From Sphaerochaeta halotolerans (GTDB taxonomy: Bacteria > Spirochaetota > Spirochaetia > Sphaerochaetales > Sphaerochaetaceae): a stretch of 51,311 nucleotides of DNA. The position numbers and the translations under genes were made by a program. Under the pieces are notes generated by a model. It searched no databases. It was not told the DNA's origin and worked only from the letters and a program-made list of their open reading frames with translations. Positions 30,380 through 39,888 of the stretch are shown here, piece after piece. The stretch spans positions 1 through 51,311 of the forward strand of contig NZ_QUWK01000015.1 in the NCBI RefSeq assembly GCF_003429665.1, given 5' to 3'. Within the stretch, counting starts at the first letter, position 1; each line of letters opens with the position of its first letter.

Positions 30380-31330
30380 ATGATACTCAGTGCAAGCAGA
30401 AGAACCGATATTCCTGCATTCTATACGGATTGGTTCCTGAACAGAATCAAGGAACGGTATGTCCTTTCCAGAAATCCCATCAATCCAAGGCAGGTCAGTA
30501 AGATAGATTTGTCTCCTGAACTCATTGATTGTATTGTCTTCTGGACAAAGAACCCTGCCCCACTCATTGTAAGACTGAAAGAACTGGAAGCATATCATTA
30601 CTATTTCCAGTTTACGCTCAATGCATATGAGGCAGATGTAGAACCTGGACTGGCAAGCAAACACGTATCGTTGGTCAATACATTCATGCACCTTTCTGAG
30701 AGAATTGGAAAGGAACGTGTGATCTGGAGATACGATCCAATGCTTCTTACTGACAGATATACGGTGTCATATCATATCCAACATTTTATCGCCCTCGCAG
30801 AAAAGCTGAAGGATGCAACTCAGCGTTGCGTTATTAGTTTTATCGATTTCCCCAAAAGAATTTCCAGGGCAATGAGTGCCTTGGGGTATCGAGCACCAGA
30901 TTTCAATGAAATGCATACAATTGCAAGAGCGTTTTCGGGCATTGCTAGTGAGAATGGCATTACCCTCGAAACCTGTGCTGAAGCCATAGATCTATCGACC
31001 TATGGCATCAGTCATGGGAAATGCATTGATGATGCCCTGATTTCTCGAATCTCTGGAAAACCTCTTCACCTTAAGAAAGATGCTAACCAAAGAGCAGCAT
31101 GCTCTTGTGTGCCAAGTGTGGATATAGGCCTGAACAACACCTGTATGCATGGATGCAAATACTGTTATGCCTCTTTCAACAACGAAGCACTTCTACAAAA
31201 CCGAGAGCATTATGATGCATTCTCTCCAATCCTCTGTAGCAAGATCACCGAGGATGACGTTATTCGTGAAAGAAAGGATACACAATCCAGAAACGCTCTG
31301 CAGTTGAATTTACCATTCGTATCGTCATAG
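30380..31330 (+). CDS. DUF1848 family protein with a C-terminal CX3CX2C motif
   Basis: 316 residues, the DUF1848 family: ILSASRRTDIPAFY at the start, VFWTKNPAPL near 53, RYDPMLLTD near 117. The C-terminal part has CSC (241, 243) and CMHGCKYC (255, 259, 262), a CX3CX2C spacing as in radical SAM enzymes followed by an aromatic residue, preceded by VDIGLNNT. An Fe-S cluster is likely; the function is unknown. The ATG at 30380 has no good Shine-Dalgarno sequence; a weak promoter (TTGTGA, 17 bp, TACGTT) ends 9 nt upstream. It lies in the accessory patch after the IS remnant. Confidence 0.8.
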   Translation: MILSASRRTDIPAFYTDWFLNRIKERYVLSRNPINPRQVSKIDLSPELIDCIVFWTKNPAPLIVRLKELEAYHYYFQFTLNAYEADVEPGLASKHVSLVNTFMHLSERIGKERVIWRYDPMLLTDRYTVSYHIQHFIALAEKLKDATQRCVISFIDFPKRISRAMSALGYRAPDFNEMHTIARAFSGIASENGITLETCAEAIDLSTYGISHGKCIDDALISRISGKPLHLKKDANQRAACSCVPSVDIGLNNTCMHGCKYCYASFNNEALLQNREHYDAFSPILCSKITEDDVIRERKDTQSRNALQLNLPFVSS

Positions 31331-31570
31331 CTAATTCAAGTTTTTATTGAAATACACAGGTAGTGTTACCTTATCGCTGGTTGCCTTCTGCTTTTCTTGG
31401 GGATATTCTCCCACGGATACAGCTATTCCCCCATAGAAGGTATTCATATGGGAGATTAATATTGCTATGCCCTTTTTCCTAGCGTTTCTTGAAAGTAATC
31501 TCGATACATAACCTAAACATAAGACTCTCAAATTACCAGGAAACAACCCTTCAGAGTCTCGTCTTTGCAC
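31331..31570 (-). CDS. Doubtful small open frame
   Basis: 79 codons from a GTG at 31570, with no ribosome-binding site and no recognised motif, 27 nt downstream of the phosphofructokinase stop on the same strand. It could be a decayed gene end or chance; listed because nothing else occupies 31331-31597. Confidence 0.2.
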   Translation of the reverse strand: MQRRDSEGLFPGNLRVLCLGYVSRLLSRNARKKGIAILISHMNTFYGGIAVSVGEYPQEKQKATSDKVTLPVYFNKNLN

Positions 31571-31597
31571 ATGGGCCTGTGTAGTCTCTTTTGGTAC

Positions 31598-32668
31598 TCA
31601 GGAGCCCAGACATACCCCGATATCCTTGACACAGGTAAGTAGGTAGTGGTCCTTGGGAATATATTTGACCGGACCAGCGACTTTCTCCAAAGGAACTGTC
31701 ACAAGCCTGTTGTTTTGGACTGCCATCATGTTACCCCACTTGTCCTTCATAATCTCCTGGGCACAACGACTTCCCAGTGAGGTGGAAAGCAATCGATCGT
31801 AGGGAGTTGGAGTGCCACCACGCTGGACATAGCCAAGAATGGTTACCCGAGCTTCCCTTCCCGTGAGTCGCTCCAAGTGGGCAGCCAGCTGTGGGGTACG
31901 GGTCTTGAGCATCTCCTCAACCTTATCCTTGCCACCTTCCTCTTCTAGAACCTTTGCCATACTCTTGGACATAGCTCCCTCAGCAACCACTACAATACTG
32001 AACTTCTTCCCTTCTCGGGTTCGTCTGAGAATTGCATCAGCAACCACCTGTTCATCATAGGGAATCTCAGGGAGCAGAATGACATCTGCACCACCGGCAA
32101 TACCAGCACCCAGGGCAAGCCATCCCACTTTGTGTCCCATTGTCTCCAGGATGATGATACGATGATGACTGCTGGCGGTACTATGCAACCGGTCGACTGC
32201 CTCGGTGGCAATCATCATAGCAGTATCATAGCCAAAGGAAACATCCGTATGCATTATATCATTGTCGATGGTCTTGGGAAGCGTCAGGATATTCAATCCA
32301 GCATTTGCCAGACGGTAGGAGTTCTTCTGGGTTCCCCCTCCACCAAGGCAGACAAGCCCGCTGAGATGATTCGAATGATAGTTTTCCACTATGACATCGG
32401 TCATGTCCATGATTTTTCCGCCTACCGGCATTTTATGGGGCTTGTCTCGGCTGGAACCCAGAATGGTACCACCCCGTGTGATTATACCGGAGAGGTATGC
32501 ATCATTGAGTTCAACAAACCGATTCTCCATCAATCCACGGTACCCATCAAGGTAACCGATCAAGGTGTATCCACCCTCATGTAGCAACGTCTTTCCTACC
32601 GCTCGTATGGCTGAATTCAACCCAGGGGTATCTCCACCAGAGGTCAGGATCCCAATCAACTTGCTCAT
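31598..32668 (-). CDS. pfkA: Phosphofructokinase, phosphoryl donor uncertain
   Basis: 356 residues of the PfkA superfamily, phosphorylating fructose 6-phosphate. Visible are [12 protein letters not shown] (9-18), [10 protein letters not shown] (109-118), PKTIDND (131-137) with the catalytic Asp, and ETMGHKVGW (175-183). At the position that separates donors it has Gly (as in ATP enzymes), but the TIDND motif is preceded by Lys, which is typical of PPi-dependent and group III enzymes, and the usual Mg-binding Asp of GGDG is Gly. ATP, PPi or even polyphosphate are therefore open. The ATG is 5 nt after the ParA stop with AAGGAG in the ParA tail, so it is the last gene of the ppk operon. Confidence 0.85.
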
Positions 32669-32673
32669 CGATA

Positions 32674-33450
32674 TTACTCCTTCTTATCAGTATGCTCACT
32701 CGGTGAACGTTCACGCAAAAATGGTACCAATTCCTCATACAAACCACGGAAGGCTAGTGCGCCTTTCCCCTTGGGTTTGCTTGTTACCACTGGTTTCTGT
32801 ATCTCACCCATTTTCTCTATCTCACTCGCGAAAGGAATCACACTTTGCAACGCCTCACTTCTATCTAACAACTCAGCTGCTATCTTCACCTGCAGTTTTT
32901 TCCTTCTATCGAGCATGGAAACTACCAGATGTACCTGAGTATCCTTCTGCTGTAAACGCTCCAACTCACCCAACAATTGTTCATATGCAAGTACCGCAAA
33001 AGGGGTAGGGACCACTGGAACCAACACTATATCTGAGGCATACAAGACATTCTCACTGACCAAGCTCATGGTTGGTGATGCATCGATAATGACCAAGTCA
33101 TAGGTAGGGATCAACTCTTCCAGTCGTTTTTCCAACCGATGATGAGAGTGCTTCTTCGCATCAAAAAGAATGGAAAGATAGCGATATGCTGTTGAGGAAG
33201 GAAGTATATCCAGAGAAGAGAAATTGGTAGCCTGAATCTGCTTTGTCAGTTGCTTCCCCCCCTTTACCAACGCAGAGGCATCATGGCTCTTCTTTGGCTT
33301 TACATCCAGCAAATAGCTGCTTGAACCGAGCGGGTCAAGGTCGAGCAACAAGGTCCGCTGCCCGGCCATTGCAGAGAGCACTGCCAGATTCACACTGAGG
33401 GTGCTCTTGCCAACTCCACCCTTGATGCTGTATACGGCCAGTGTTCTCAT
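32674..33450 (-). CDS. ParA/MinD-type ATPase in the polyphosphate operon
   Basis: 258 residues. It has the deviant Walker A with signature lysine, [10 protein letters not shown] (8-17), Walker A' [12 protein letters not shown] near 36 and Walker [11 protein letters not shown] near 116, as in Soj/ParA proteins that form ATP-dependent dimers on DNA and position cargo. No ParB gene and no parS-like repeat are nearby. It overlaps the CHAD gene by 4 bp and nearly abuts pfkA. Family knowledge says orphan ParA proteins position plasmids, carboxysomes, chemoreceptors or storage granules; here a polyphosphate body is the obvious candidate cargo (inference). A charged C-terminal tail ([13 protein letters not shown]) follows the ATPase fold. 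Confidence 0.85.
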
Positions 33451-34433
33451 GCCATCTCCTCCCAGTACTCACTACTCAAATGACGATACTCCTCCACAAG
33501 ATGTTGTATTTCCTTTTCCAGATCAGCTAACACTCTCAAGGACTCTATGGGTGGCTTTTTCTGTTTCAGGAGTAGATCTTGCAGCAGAATAAGATCATGC
33601 CACTTGCCCAAGATCTTCTCGAGGTCGTAGAGCTTCTCATCCCGTTTCACTGAGGCCATCTCGCTTACAGCAAGCAAGGACCGTACCCGTCGTCGTACCT
33701 TGTGCATGGCTTGTACATCCCTTGCAGAGTGTACAGTGTGCACAGCCTTGACCAACCGCCTGTGGGCTTTGGCTACCAAGACCTTTGGATGATACCCAGA
33801 AAAGGCAAATCTGTTCTCCTCCAAGAGTTCCTGGATATCTGAAGCAAAGGAGGAGGGATATGCTTTCTTCAGTGCTTTCAGGTGTTTTTTCACCTTCAGT
33901 TGTTTCTGTTCCTGTGTAAGACCTTTCTTTTCCAACAACTGGAGAAGCACTTGGTCATCGCGAACTTTCCCTGCAAGTTTCACCAGTTTCTTGAGCAACC
34001 GTTTCATATCGTTTCGCCTCTCCTTGGAAAGTGTTTTTCCGATAAGAGGAAGCATGAGACGGAGATTGCACAATGCTGTCCTGAATGCATGCAAGGATTC
34101 CCTGTCTCCCAAGGTTGAAGCATTCTCAGAAAGGATTGCAACCTGCCTCTCGCACCATCCAATGATGGGGCTGTTGCACATCTCCCTGAAAGCAGGTACT
34201 GCTAGCAGTCCTTCAAGCTGATCTTGGGTGTCGGAGAGTGGAAACAGTTCCAGACGCAACTCCTCGGGGAAGTATCGCACCTCCCCCACAGCCTGTTCGT
34301 CCAGAAACAGGGTACCCTCAAGCGGGCTCGATCCTTCCTTCCAGGCTATCCGGTAGGGGGAGAATGCCTGCTCCCAGCTTGCAGGAGTAGATTGGGTTTC
34401 AAGTAGCAGATAGTAGGGAGCGTTGTTATTCAT
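33447..34433 (-). CDS. CHAD-domain protein, predicted polyphosphate binder
   Basis: 328 residues. The first 110 or so have no clear motif; the rest is an all-helical CHAD domain rich in Lys, Arg and His, with its two half-repeats marked by LHAFRTALCNLRLM (near 124) and MHKVRRRVRSLL (near 243). CHAD domains bind polyphosphate through these basic and histidine residues and can localise to polyphosphate granules. It overlaps ppk upstream and parA downstream by 4 bp each (ATGA), so the three proteins should be made in step. No CYTH/triphosphate tunnel domain is fused, although many CHAD proteins have one. Confidence 0.88.
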   Translation of the reverse strand: MNNNAPYYLLLETQSTPASWEQAFSPYRIAWKEGSSPLEGTLFLDEQAVGEVRYFPEELRLELFPLSDTQDQLEGLLAVPAFREMCNSPIIGWCERQVAILSENASTLGDRESLHAFRTALCNLRLMLPLIGKTLSKERRNDMKRLLKKLVKLAGKVRDDQVLLQLLEKKGLTQEQKQLKVKKHLKALKKAYPSSFASDIQELLEENRFAFSGYHPKVLVAKAHRRLVKAVHTVHSARDVQAMHKVRRRVRSLLAVSEMASVKRDEKLYDLEKILGKWHDLILLQDLLLKQKKPPIESLRVLADLEKEIQHLVEEYRHLSSEYWEEMA

Positions 34434-36493
34434 AGATTTTCCTCCAACTGACTCTGATACCAGAGATATAGATCCCGTTGTGCGCGTTTCTCATTGGGTT
34501 CACCTAACTGTAAACGCTGATTGAAATTTTCTTCATGCAGGCTGAAGGAAGAAGCTGTATCATTCCAATGTGCCTGCAGGAACAATTCCAACTCTTCCTT
34601 GATCCTGTCATCAAAGATAGGGACCATGACCTCGATACGGGTATCAAGATTACGTTCCATCCAATCCGCAGACCCAATGAAATATAGTGGATTTCCCTTG
34701 TTGTGGAACTTGACCACCCGGGTATGCTCAAGATACCGGTCAATCAATGCCTTTCCCCTAACATTCTTCTGCTCTGGGTAGAGTGCCATGGAACAGATTC
34801 CCCTGATCATCAAGGTAATGGATACCCCACTATGTTCCGCCTTGCTCAGATGCTTGATCATTCCCTCATCAACAAGGTTGTTCAACTTGAGCGTTATTGC
34901 TGCAGGCCTGCCCTCCCTCGCTTCCTCCATCTCCTTCTTGATCAATGAGATGAAACGCTTTCGCGTATGGAATGGGGAGACAATAAGATGCTTGAACTTG
35001 ATATCTGCAAAACCACGGTCCAAAAGAGTGAACAGCAAGTCTATCTCTTGTGTAAGCTTAGTATTGGAAGTGAGCAGAAGATGGTCACTGTACTGACTTG
35101 CCGTCACCTCGTTGAAATTCCCTGTCCCAATGATTGCTATCTTCTTCTGCTTCTTTCCACTGTACCGGGTGATGAGACCAAGCTTGCTGTGCACCTTCAT
35201 CCCCTCAACGCCACTGATCAGCGTGATGTGGGGTTCACGGGTGAGAATCTCGGTCCAGTGCATGTTGATTTCCTCGTCAAACCGTGCTTGGAGTTCCAGG
35301 TACAGTACAATTTCCTTCCCATTTCTTGCCGCATTTCTCAGTGCGTTGATCACACTGGAGTTCTCTGGAACGCGGTAGAGCGTCATCTTGATCCCCTGGA
35401 CCGTCCTATCCAGAGCTGCTTCCCGCAACAGGTCTATGATGCAATCATAGCTTTGGTAGGGCAACGTCACCAAGTGATCCCTTTCATCTATCTGGTCAAG
35501 CAGACTTCGATTCTCCTTCAAAGTATGGTGGGGCAAGGGAGGTTGTTCCTCAAAATACAACTGGTCATTGCCTACCTTGGGGAAATGAAGCAAATCCCTT
35601 GCATTGTGGTACCTACCTCCTGGGATAATAATCCTACACTGTTTCAGCTGTGCATGTTCCATGATGTATTCAAGCATTGGCTTTGGCAACTCACGGTCAT
35701 AGACAAACCTAACCGGGTCCCCTTGACTGCGTTGCTTGATGGACGTGGAGAGTTTCTCATAAAGGCTCCTGGTGATCTCATCAGTCAGATCATATTCACC
35801 ATCACGGGTGATCTTTATGGTATAGGCATCATAACAGTCATAACTGAATGCCTTGAATATGTCCGCCAACTTGAATCGGATAATGTCCTCTAGAGCAATG
35901 AAGTGATGCCAGCCGCCTCTCGACGGCAGTTCCACATACCGCTGGATCAGATCACTGGGAACCTCGATCAAGGCATACCGGAAATCCTTCGGATCATGGC
36001 TGTGGTACATATGCACGGCAAGATAGAGCGTTACATGCTTGAGATAAGGAAATGGCAGCTTCGGATCGAGGAGAATGGGAAACAGCCGGTTTCTGAGTAT
36101 ATGACGAAAAAACCCCTCCAAAAATTGTTTCTGCTCATCGGAAAGTGTTGCTTCATCCACTATGGCTATATGATGTGTCCTGAGGGTTCTGAAGAGTTGC
36201 TCAACCACCCGATCCATTCGATCATTGAGTCGTTTCACTTCCTTGAGAATCTGTCTGATCAAGGTCTTGGGATTACCGCTCTCCTTGAGTTTGTAATGCT
36301 CGGGATCAAGAAGGGCACGATGAATCGATCCTACCCGTACCGCATAGAATTCATCCAGGTTGGAAGAGAATATCCCGATGAACTTCAATCGCTCCATCAG
36401 GGGAATATTCGGGTTTTCAGCACTCATCAAGACCCGTTCATTGAAACTCAGCCATCTCAGTTCGCGATTCACATAGACTTTTTTTGAACCCAT
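34430..36493 (-). CDS. ppk: Polyphosphate kinase 1
   Basis: 687 residues with the four-domain PPK1 layout. The N-terminal REL.WLSFNERVL and FSSNLDEFYAVRVGS are diagnostic; the first phospholipase-D-like domain carries the phosphorylated His in GMKVHSKLGLI and the second has KFHNKGNPLYFIGSADWM. It makes long-chain polyphosphate from ATP reversibly, at the inner membrane or on granules. GGAG lies 8 nt before the ATG. First gene of the ppk - CHAD - parA - pfkA operon, divergent from the M29 peptidases. No exopolyphosphatase (ppx) gene is adjacent, unlike in many ppk loci. Confidence 0.96.
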   Translation of the reverse strand: MGSKKVYVNRELRWLSFNERVLMSAENPNIPLMERLKFIGIFSSNLDEFYAVRVGSIHRALLDPEHYKLKESGNPKTLIRQILKEVKRLNDRMDRVVEQLFRTLRTHHIAIVDEATLSDEQKQFLEGFFRHILRNRLFPILLDPKLPFPYLKHVTLYLAVHMYHSHDPKDFRYALIEVPSDLIQRYVELPSRGGWHHFIALEDIIRFKLADIFKAFSYDCYDAYTIKITRDGEYDLTDEITRSLYEKLSTSIKQRSQGDPVRFVYDRELPKPMLEYIMEHAQLKQCRIIIPGGRYHNARDLLHFPKVGNDQLYFEEQPPLPHHTLKENRSLLDQIDERDHLVTLPYQSYDCIIDLLREAALDRTVQGIKMTLYRVPENSSVINALRNAARNGKEIVLYLELQARFDEEINMHWTEILTREPHITLISGVEGMKVHSKLGLITRYSGKKQKKIAIIGTGNFNEVTASQYSDHLLLTSNTKLTQEIDLLFTLLDRGFADIKFKHLIVSPFHTRKRFISLIKKEMEEAREGRPAAITLKLNNLVDEGMIKHLSKAEHSGVSITLMIRGICSMALYPEQKNVRGKALIDRYLEHTRVVKFHNKGNPLYFIGSADWMERNLDTRIEVMVPIFDDRIKEELELFLQAHWNDTASSFSLHEENFNQRLQLGEPNEKRAQRDLYLWYQSQLEENL

Positions 36494-36710: not shown

Positions 36711-37910
36711 ATGGAAACATTGCTTACACGCTATGCACGACTTGTCATTGAAGTGCAACTAAAATTACAAGAAGGAGACAGCCTCTCCATAAACAGTGAG
36801 GCAAGCACCCTTGCCTTTGCCAGGCTCCTTGCACAAAAGGCTGTTATGGCCACCAGGCAGACGGCCACTATCGTACATACCAATCATGGGAAGGTGGTTG
36901 ACGTCATTCCCATTGAACCAGTTGAGAAGGAAATATTCCGCCCCCCTGTACAAGGAGCGGTGATGTGCCATATTGTAGACCTTGACGAGCACCCCTACCT
37001 AACCCCAACCAATCTCAGCACAGTAGCAAATGAGGTGTCTATCCTGGGGAAATATGGATTGCTTGCTGATCCCGTTTTCCTTGACCGGAGAATTGCTGTC
37101 CCTTGGGCGAATATTCCCTACCCAGGTCCACGTTGGGCCTTGCAATTGCTTGGTGCCCAGGCTAGCGAAGAGGATATGTGGAAACTTTTTACTGCTATCT
37201 ATCGCATCGAAGATGAGCATGCCTTCCGTTTCTGGGAAGAGCAAGGGAACCTTTTAGCATACAGAAAGCAGAAATTGAATAAACAAGGACGTTGCATGCT
37301 CCATATGGTCGGTGATGGTTGGCAACTGGAAGCTACCATGGCCAAGGATACCATCTGGGCTGGTGGCAGGCAAACCCTGGCAAATCAGCGTTCGTTTTTC
37401 TCTTCCTTGCCGGTTCAAGCACTCCATGCCGCTCTTGACGGGAAGAGTGCCAAAGGGACATTTACTTCTTCCAGACCCTTCTACGTACTTGGGCAGGAAG
37501 TAAAGGGAGCACAGTTCACCGTGGAAGAGGGATTGGTGACTGACTATACAGCCGAGACAGGAGGGGATGCACTGGATGCACTCTTTTCAGTGGATGACGA
37601 TGCAAAAAGGGTCAGTGAAATTGCACTGGCGGACCATGACACGGTTGAGAGCCACTCCCTGGGAAAATCGATTCATCCACACTTCGCCCGTGAAATGGCA
37701 AGTGTGATTATACTCGGAGGATTTTCCCTCGATAATCTTACCACACAACAGAATGAAGAGGATCTTGAGGAAAGTGCGCTCTGCACCTCTTTGGTAAGAG
37801 TGGCGATCCCAATCGGGGACAGCCACCTTTCGGTGACGATCCACAGTGAAGATGGGAAAGAAGTATCTGTAATGGAAGAAGGAATATTCACGGAGGAAGA
37901 ACTGGTATGA
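36711..37910 (+). CDS. M29-family aminopeptidase-like protein lacking most metal ligands
   Basis: 399 residues, a paralogue of the next gene with the same overall M29 (AmpS/PepS) layout. Compared with the next protein, the metal-binding glutamate motif NLPTEEIFT is SLPVQALHA (232-240), the His-Tyr motif HLALGEGY is SVIILGGF (331-338), and HVDFMVG is RVAIPIG (363-369); only the glutamate of VSEIAL (303) is kept. It is therefore probably not a peptidase but a regulatory or structural partner. CGGAGG lies 4 nt before the ATG at 36711; the frame is open to 36687. The stop overlaps the next start by 4 bp (ATGA). Confidence 0.85.
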   Translation: METLLTRYARLVIEVQLKLQEGDSLSINSEASTLAFARLLAQKAVMATRQTATIVHTNHGKVVDVIPIEPVEKEIFRPPVQGAVMCHIVDLDEHPYLTPTNLSTVANEVSILGKYGLLADPVFLDRRIAVPWANIPYPGPRWALQLLGAQASEEDMWKLFTAIYRIEDEHAFRFWEEQGNLLAYRKQKLNKQGRCMLHMVGDGWQLEATMAKDTIWAGGRQTLANQRSFFSSLPVQALHAALDGKSAKGTFTSSRPFYVLGQEVKGAQFTVEEGLVTDYTAETGGDALDALFSVDDDAKRVSEIALADHDTVESHSLGKSIHPHFAREMASVIILGGFSLDNLTTQQNEEDLEESALCTSLVRVAIPIGDSHLSVTIHSEDGKEVSVMEEGIFTEEELV

Positions 37911-39130
37911 ACCAACAAGAAATTGAACGATATGCTGACTTGATCATCCGTGGGGGAATCAACTTGCAAAGCGGAAAAGGGGTTGTCATCACCACAGGTC
38001 CGGGTACCTATTACTTTGCCAGGGAGCTGAGCAAGTCAGCCTACCGCCATGGCGCCAGCTATGTCCAGGTGATGCTTGATGACCTTGATGTCCTCGCATC
38101 ACGCTTGGAACATCAGGATGAAGACGCTTTGAAATTCAACCCCCATTTCCTCAAGGCATTCGACTACGAATTTGTCAGTGAAGGATGGTCCAATATCAGG
38201 ATCGACAGCACGGAAGAGCGGCTTGACCATGCTCCGCTCGATGGAAGGAAAAACCAGATCCTAGGAAAGGCCAAACGGCAGTTCAGTGAAGCAAAAACCA
38301 AGAAATTGATGCGTCACCAACTCCCCTGGTGTGTATGTGTTGCCCCCGGTCCGCTCTGGGCAAAACAAGTACTGGGAGATGGAGCGACCACCGATGACTT
38401 AATGAAGGTGCTGAAACCTATCTTGCTCCTCGATGCTGATGATCCGCTGCAGGCTTGGAAGGAAAAGGCATCGCTCTTGCAGAAACGCCAGGACTATCTC
38501 AATGAACTTGGGATCGACACCCTTCACTACCAGAGCAGCAAGAGTGATTTGACAATCGGCTTTACCGAGAGAGCCCGTTTTACTGGAGGCAGTGAGACGC
38601 TCCCCGATGGCAGGGCGTTTTTTGCCAATCTTCCTACTGAGGAGATTTTCACCACTCCTGACAATCTCCGCGCAGAGGGGTACATAACTACAACCAAACC
38701 AGTGGAGGTACTGAATACCACCACCGAGGAGGTCCGCTTTGTTTTCAAGGATGGAAAAGTGGTTGACTATCAGGCTAAGAAAGGACAGGATGCACTGGAC
38801 AAGTTCTTTGCCATCGATAAAGGTACCCGAAGACTTGGAGAAGTCGCCTTGGTTGATGAGACCAGCCCCATTGCGAAGAGCAATCTTATTTTCAACTCAA
38901 TCCTGCTTGACGAAAATGCCTCTTGCCACCTTGCCCTTGGAGAGGGGTACCCCACGGCACTGAAAGATGGTGCATCCTTGGATACCAAGGAACAACTGCA
39001 AGAAGCACACTGCAATACCAGCTTGATGCATGTTGACTTCATGGTGGGCTCCCAGGACATGAAAATAACCGCCCATACTCGTGATGGGCGACAGATAGTA
39101 ATCATGGAAGATGGGGTGTTTACCTTCTAG
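37907..39130 (+). CDS. M29-family metallo-aminopeptidase
   Basis: 407 residues, thermophilic-aminopeptidase (M29, AmpS/PepS) family, which removes N-terminal residues using two metal ions. All expected ligands are visible: Glu in NLPTEEIFTTP (245-246), Glu312 in RLGEVALV, His341 and Tyr348 in HLALGEGY, His375 and Asp377 in HVDFMVG. The enzymes are homodimers in known cases. It is coupled to the degenerate upstream paralogue. Its last 4 bp overlap the end of coaX on the other strand. Confidence 0.92.
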   Translation: MNQQEIERYADLIIRGGINLQSGKGVVITTGPGTYYFARELSKSAYRHGASYVQVMLDDLDVLASRLEHQDEDALKFNPHFLKAFDYEFVSEGWSNIRIDSTEERLDHAPLDGRKNQILGKAKRQFSEAKTKKLMRHQLPWCVCVAPGPLWAKQVLGDGATTDDLMKVLKPILLLDADDPLQAWKEKASLLQKRQDYLNELGIDTLHYQSSKSDLTIGFTERARFTGGSETLPDGRAFFANLPTEEIFTTPDNLRAEGYITTTKPVEVLNTTTEEVRFVFKDGKVVDYQAKKGQDALDKFFAIDKGTRRLGEVALVDETSPIAKSNLIFNSILLDENASCHLALGEGYPTALKDGASLDTKEQLQEAHCNTSLMHVDFMVGSQDMKITAHTRDGRQIVIMEDGVFTF

Positions 39131-39888
39131 TTGAGCTCCTGGATGAGCTTGAGTCCATCCATGGTATGCATGGAGGAAATCTGATTGATCCGCTCGATGA
39201 GCGGGGCAATGGTCCTGCTCAGGCCACCGGTTGCAATGACGTAGACCTCTTTGCCAATTTCCTGCTCCACGCGTTCAACCATGGTCTTAACCATGCCAGC
39301 GTAACCAAACATGATTCCGCTCCTGATTGAGTCCTGGCTGTTCCTGCCAAGGACGGAGGGAGGAATTTTCAATTCTACCTGGGGAAGCTGGGCGGTATTC
39401 CCAAAGAGGGCGTTCACCGCAGTAACCAGACCGGGGGCTATGGAAACTCCCAGCACAGAACCATCGCTGTCCACCGTCGCCAGGGTGAGTGCAGTTCCAA
39501 AGTCAACAACCACCACCGCATGCCCTGGACATGAGAAGTGTGCTTGGGCAAGGTTTGCCAACAAGTCAGTTCCCAGTTCGGCAGGTATGGTCTCCTTCTT
39601 CAGCCCGCTGTTCACCGTATGGTCGACCATCAAGGGTTGAACATCAAACAACCTAATGATATTTTTCTGCATTGACCTGGTCAGGTTGGGTACAACCGAG
39701 CTGATTACAGCACGGTTGATATCATGCTTATAGACCTGGGAATGACTCAACAGGCTCTCCAGAACTACAAAATACTCATCACTGGTCTTTCCTTGGTCGC
39801 TGTAAATCCTGTATGAGTGTATCCAGTTCTGCCCATCATGGACAGCAATCACGATATTCGTATTCCCAACATCTACAGCAAGCAGCAT
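39127..39888 (-). CDS. coaX: Type III pantothenate kinase
   Basis: 253 residues of the acetate/sugar-kinase-like fold: MLLAVDVGNTNIVIAVHDG (phosphate-binding start), GTDLLANLAQA, VVVDFGTALTLATV with the catalytic Asp, and VYVIATGGLS. It starts coenzyme A synthesis; type III enzymes do not respond to CoA feedback and need a monovalent cation. It follows the ABC-F gene by 9 nt. Confidence 0.95.
   Translation of the reverse strand: MLLAVDVGNTNIVIAVHDGQNWIHSYRIYSDQGKTSDEYFVVLESLLSHSQVYKHDINRAVISSVVPNLTRSMQKNIIRLFDVQPLMVDHTVNSGLKKETIPAELGTDLLANLAQAHFSCPGHAVVVVDFGTALTLATVDSDGSVLGVSIAPGLVTAVNALFGNTAQLPQVELKIPPSVLGRNSQDSIRSGIMFGYAGMVKTMVERVEQEIGKEVYVIATGGLSRTIAPLIERINQISSMHTMDGLKLIQELN

Follow-up and report, generated by a model that had tools for sequence, protein, structure and literature searches.

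The usual explanation of an inactive peptidase copy is that it regulates its active sister. In MPP alpha/beta and the bacterial M16B pairs, two genes encode an active metallopeptidase homologue and an inactive one (PMC11266112), and for C. elegans PID-5, an inactive aminopeptidase homologue, a heterodimer with the active, dimeric APP-1 has been proposed (PMC10377022). In the M29 family, the six residues EEHYHD bind the metals in S. aureus AmpS and were reported as essential for the activity of Listeria AmpII (PMC7023490), and the N-terminal portions build the dimer interface (PMC10070186). The inactive M29 members that we found in the literature are the crocagin proteins only: CgnB and CgnE are M29-derived peptide binders, one with and one without metal (PMC10070186). 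M29 goes unmentioned in a review of pseudo-metallopeptidases, and our search returned no literature on the metal-less M29 proteins of Sphaerochaeta described here. What is new is a widely conserved, partner-independent M29 pseudopeptidase, a result that strengthens the pseudo-peptidase reading of this locus and weakens the heterodimer reading.

The gene pair and its closest relatives

The window, the whole 51,311-nucleotide stretch of Sphaerochaeta halotolerans DNA that was analysed, carries two M29 genes on the forward strand. P0001 (36711..37910, +, 399 aa, ATG start) and P0002 (37907..39130, +, 407 aa) share a 4-bp stop/start overlap (ATGA, 37907..37910, +) and are paralogues with 28% identity (BLASTP 4e-46). 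PF02073 matches P0002 over its whole length (6.9e-129, 430 bits) and likewise P0001 (1.4e-62, 212 bits, residues 3-393, cut-off 27 bits), along with all 46 aligned members of the clade to which P0001 belongs (hereafter, pseudo copies). The PDB homologues of P0002 are AmpS, PepS and AmpT (2e-69 to 3e-57). All six catalytic/metal residues of P0002 are in place within 38642..39037 (+): E246 (38642-38644), E312 (38840-38842), H341 (38927-38929), Y348 (38948-38950), H375 (39029-39031) and D377 (39035-39037). Their counterparts in P0001 are A237, E303, V332, S339, R363 and A365, which makes P0001 a member of M29 by homology that has kept one of six active-enzyme residues. In place of NLPTEEIFT it reads SLPVQALHA (37404..37430, +; Glu246 to Ala237), the HLALGEGY region has become SVIILGGF (37701..37724, +; His341 and Tyr348 gone) and HVDFMVG has become RVAIPIG (37797..37817, +; His375 to Arg363, Asp377 to Ala365), Glu303 (37617..37619, +), the counterpart of the bridging ligand Glu312, being the sole one kept. 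The initial annotation had described just such an overlapping pair, a second copy with every metal ligand and a first copy that lost all but one through these three motif changes while keeping an intact frame of normal length, and each of these points is borne out by the coordinates, the alignment and the full-length Pfam match.

P0001 shares with AmpS (1zjc), PepS (4icq/4icr/4ics) and AmpT (2ayi) homology over the full length, in both domains, and the same predicted fold; unlike them, it has lost five of the six metal/catalytic residues, and its catalytic surroundings are no longer specially conserved. The nearest precedent is CgnB/CgnE (6zsv/6zsu), also an M29-derived pair encoded close together with one metal-less partner, whose function is peptide binding rather than peptidase activity. 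That pair differs in being part of a biosynthetic cluster and in lacking most of the N-terminal dimer interface: the Cgn proteins have short N-termini and about 305 residues, whereas P0001 has 399 aa and matches PF02073 from profile position 3. Lone Cgn copies, moreover, always keep the metal site, whereas the lone copies of Sphaerochaetaceae are the metal-less ones. As in MPP and the M16B pairs, an active and an inactive metallopeptidase homologue are encoded by two genes here, but MPP alpha is essential to its active subunit and the M29 pseudo copy instead persists without one. PID-5/APP-1 offers the same combination of an inactive aminopeptidase homologue and an active dimeric one, in this case from the aminopeptidase P family, with an eTudor fusion and in a eukaryote. 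Finally, 2,5-dihydroxypyridine dioxygenase (7cn3, 7cup) is comparable as an M29-related fold put to a different function; it is an active metal enzyme that retains the His-x-Asp metal ligand pair, whereas in P0001 nothing corresponds to this M29 pair (H375/D377 are R363/A365).

An AlphaFold2 model of P0001 built from 12 sequences (mean pLDDT 66, pTM 0.69) is confident in the catalytic domain and poor in the N-terminal domain, where residues 72-146 fall below pLDDT 50. Its fold matches (VIA) are AmpT (Z 28.5), AmpS and PepS (Z 27) and, next, the dioxygenase 7cn3 (Z 14.8), while CgnE (Z 9.7) and CgnB (Z 9.4) score not much above the range of common chance matches. As modelled, the fold of P0001 is still that of M29.

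Metal-site loss, age and chromosomal position

Among 62 core pseudo copies, seven keep none of the six ligands, 43 keep one, eight keep two and four keep three, which is the maximum; a complete metal-1 or metal-2 site is found in 0/62. E312 is the usual survivor, and it is the only ligand left in copies from the genus of the window; some have lost even this residue. Basic residues have taken their place: 60 of the 62 carry Arg or Lys at one or more of the six ligand positions, as compared with none of 49 active enzymes, and Arg occupies the His375 column in 35/62. With random six-column sets conserved in active enzymes, the mean share of copies with Arg/Lys was 26%, or 48% if the columns were polar, against the observed 97%, a value reached by 0/5000 sets; as the sequences are related, this fraction is not a probability. 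The basic residue sits at position 375 in most clades, at 348 in genus g11 and at 246 and 377 in g5, g6, g9 and g20, and such differences between clades argue for repeated solutions. From these substitutions we infer that the basic side chains probably hold the fold together through salt bridges with the carboxylates that remain. A relocation of the P0001 ligands was also considered and rejected: the alternative that they lie elsewhere, against which the initial annotation was to be judged, is contradicted by the 62 relatives, in which no conserved His/Cys/Asp/Glu constellation appears as a replacement.

When 393 phylum genomes and 139 family genomes were searched with a profile built from 46 pseudo copies, strong matches (at least 300 bits) came from Sphaerochaetaceae only. 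Candidate pseudo copies outside the family were rejected, the top phylum matches being ordinary intact M29s: the best-scoring sampled M29 proteins from outside have EEHYHD intact, apart from one with F in place of Y, and their scores are those of usual active enzymes. A tree was built from 124 M29 proteins, and a single branch (SH-aLRT 100) sets its 71 pseudo copies apart from the rest, although this was a quick search under LG+G4 with long branches, and the exact root of the duplication is not fixed by it. Pseudo copies and active copies each group largely by genus within the family, a pattern that suggests a single ancient duplication and not a series of recent events. The loss of the two-metal centre, evident throughout the clade, would have preceded the diversification of Sphaerochaetaceae.

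Chromosomal position is conserved as well. In every genus examined, the pseudo copy occupies a slot between tsaD-abcF-coaX and DUF3276-rnhB-smc (identities by Pfam), and the most diverged forms (g7, g18 and g21; 347-360 aa) are found in the same slot. In the window, the ancestral locus is marked, as in all genera examined, by coaX, encoding type III pantothenate kinase (39127..39888, −), which is convergent with P0002 and overlaps it by 4 bp at the stop codons (39127-39130). In this genome, the pseudo copy is separated from rnhB, elsewhere a conserved neighbour, by a block (window 30380-36493) that holds a polyphosphate kinase gene (Pfam) and, judged by eye, CHAD-, ParA-like ATPase- and phosphofructokinase-like genes. 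As a clue to function, the operon context yielded nothing useful, since all neighbours except the active gene have housekeeping roles, and most of them lie on the opposite strand. In the small-genome genera g18 and g21 (L176, L177, L179, L180), the diverged pseudo copy of 347-348 aa directly adjoins coaX on the same strand instead of being convergent with it and may be co-transcribed with the pantothenate kinase there.

Occurrence without the active partner and selection

Counted at a threshold of at least 300 bits, pseudo copies are present in 94 genomes, of which 49 have an intact canonical active partner and 45 have none. At 95% completeness or above, 23 of 48 genomes with a pseudo copy are without such a partner. 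Of these 23, G039 and G041 have another M29 of a third type, and G107 has a third-type copy along with an interrupted active one; in the other 20 the pseudo copy is the only M29 found at these thresholds. In lone genomes, the pseudo copy adjoins coaX (abcF in G029) with mostly little or no room for a lost gene. Both genes are present but unlinked in g13 and part of g11, and partner presence or absence changes state at least 10 times on the gene tree. The converse case, an active copy without a detected pseudo copy, was met in 22 genomes when 300 bits was the threshold, and some of these have the pseudo copy in its strongly diverged form. Given that each gene occurs without the other, the two are separable, and the general role cannot be that of an obligate heterodimer with the neighbour: in an obligate pair of the MPP type, the inactive subunit would always be accompanied by its active partner. 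Conservation of the pair in relatives, which had been suggested as a check on the heterodimer proposal, holds for the arrangement, as the genes are usually adjacent, co-oriented and tight where both occur, and fails for the partner itself, which is so often missing.

Selection on the pseudo copies does not depend on company. Omega (Nei-Gojobori, close pairs) is 0.05-0.15 for pseudo copies of paired genomes, as against 0.04-0.13 for their active neighbours or counterparts there; pseudo copies without partner, at 0.06-0.14, are not relaxed. These ranges omit pairs with very few changes (e.g., G019/G020 and G009/G010), and values at saturated dS are rough. No internal stops were found in the genes tested, and the sampled orthologues are of normal length. 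Purifying selection on the degenerate copy, the other check that had been suggested, is accordingly present across relatives, and decay by frameshifts, which would have spoken against a maintained pseudo-peptidase, was looked for in the sampled orthologues, whose frames are intact. With catalytic residues lost, the frame intact and purifying selection acting on it, P0001 qualifies as a pseudoenzyme, and the pseudo-peptidase claim of the initial annotation gains clade-wide support.

The distribution of constraint has changed within the protein. Across 26 genomes with both genes, the ratio of C-terminal to N-terminal domain divergence is 1.04 in pseudo copies versus 0.71 in active ones; pseudo copies are equally diverged in both domains, whereas in active enzymes the catalytic domain has changed less than the N-terminal one. 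The surroundings of the ligands are identical at 34% of positions in pseudo copies versus 77% in active copies of the 26 matched genomes. N28, T48, G60, P121 and P367 hardly vary within the pseudo clade, while active enzymes have other or variable residues at these positions. N28, T48 and G60-K61 belong to an N-terminal-domain stretch at 36792..36893 (+), and P121 is encoded at 37071-37073 (+). Constraint has shifted, with less on the catalytic pocket and more on the N-terminal domain, which now carries as much of it as the old catalytic domain. Given the weak N-terminal domain of the P0001 model, these new motifs cannot be placed in space.

Possible roles of the pseudo copy

Because the pseudo copy is preserved even where the working copy has been lost, it most likely serves an independent, non-enzymatic function and does more than regulate its neighbour. 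The explanation that we favour, and hold to be reasonably probable, is that P0001 is an ancient metal-free M29 pseudo-aminopeptidase, a duplicate kept as a core gene for its own role, most likely as a non-catalytic, homodimeric binder or scaffold. An M29 aminopeptidase gene would have been duplicated and one duplicate would have lost its two-metal centre before the family diversified, with Arg, mostly at the His375 position, and Arg or Lys at the Tyr348 position in one genus, filling the former metal site. The protein would keep the M29 dimer and clamshell fold, the basic residues stabilising the emptied site, and would work without catalysis as a homodimer, if the dimerisation of the family extends to it. 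It may bind a peptide, a protein N-terminus or another ligand, or may scaffold a complex. Where the active gene is adjacent, both proteins are probably co-expressed and might mix as heterodimers, a step that the favoured explanation does not require. A narrower version, in which this core Sphaerochaetaceae protein is a metal-free M29-fold binder with basic residues standing in for the metals and the N-terminal domain as its new functional surface, is more tentative, and we put it forward as a possibility somewhat short of even; by analogy with inactive eukaryotic aminopeptidase homologues, such a binder might, for example, capture peptides or nascent N-termini.

The usual adjacent, co-oriented and tight pairing would suit a joint complex, too, and counts in favour of the original proposal, that the pseudo copy is a regulatory subunit in a heterodimer with the adjacent live aminopeptidase. 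M29 enzymes are homodimers (PMC7023490, PMC10070186), active/inactive peptidase partnerships have precedents in MPP alpha/beta (PMC11266112) and, as proposed, in PID-5 with APP-1 (PMC10377022), and the active gene, if at the locus, lies downstream of the pseudo copy in the same orientation, the two overlapping slightly or standing a short distance apart in most relatives that have both. With an intact canonical partner absent from 45 of the 94 genomes, linkage missing in g13 and in part of g11 and omega not relaxed in lone copies, the heterodimer does not stand as the general role, and we consider regulation unlikely; it may be an additional, optional role in tightly paired species such as this one. 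Rather unlikely, too, is a different enzyme with new catalytic residues. The dioxygenase, as the next fold match of P0001 (7cn3, Z 14.8), indicates that this fold has been re-used for other chemistry, and a few polar residues (N28, T48, R227, D295 and S360) are nearly fixed in the clade, but the conservation of D295 and S360 is just as strong in active M29s, the old pocket has no conserved His/Cys/Asp/Glu set, and around the former ligands the sequence varies about as much as in the remaining protein.

Some residual chemistry might be sought in g2, whose copies are acidic at three of the six positions (D246/E312/E377), as if an altered metal site with weak peptidase activity survived in some lineages; an Arg at position 375 sits among these acidic residues, however, and the solitary E312 of the window genus, lost altogether in some copies, together with the lack of a complete metal-1 or metal-2 site in all 62, makes this very improbable. 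As for a neutral, decaying duplicate, the missing catalytic residues and the 28% identity to the live copy would fit, but intact reading frames in the orthologues tested, omega values of about 0.05-0.15 and the same place throughout the family already contradict it, and we give it practically no credence.

Returning to the favoured role as an independent, non-catalytic protein, the family has carried out a natural separating experiment several times over, the active gene being lost and the pseudo copy remaining under unchanged selection. Owing to this repeated loss, the clade offers a clean test of whether a bacterial pseudoenzyme can have a function of its own. It also carries a warning for annotation, as the Pfam model labels these copies thermophilic metalloprotease despite the absent metal site.

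Other M29 genes were met along the way. G000 has a third M29 (contig C46, 56845-57834, L003) of about 375 aa and a distinct, long-branched type; it was initially taken for another degenerate copy (EESYQQ), a reading rejected as an alignment artefact when a broader alignment gave an intact EEHYHD. This third type is the only M29 found in G004, G006 and G007 of the same genus, which have neither other copy. In G107 (L158:7510-8708), which has a third-type copy as well, the active copy is broken by two frame changes, by real decay or assembly error, and the adjoining pseudo copy is intact. Finally, an active M29 of a different type (EEHFHD, in most cases scoring above 500 bits against Pfam) sits at an unrelated locus in g15, g18, g21 and some of g11 (L182, L183, L184, L185, L186), possibly a separate acquisition.
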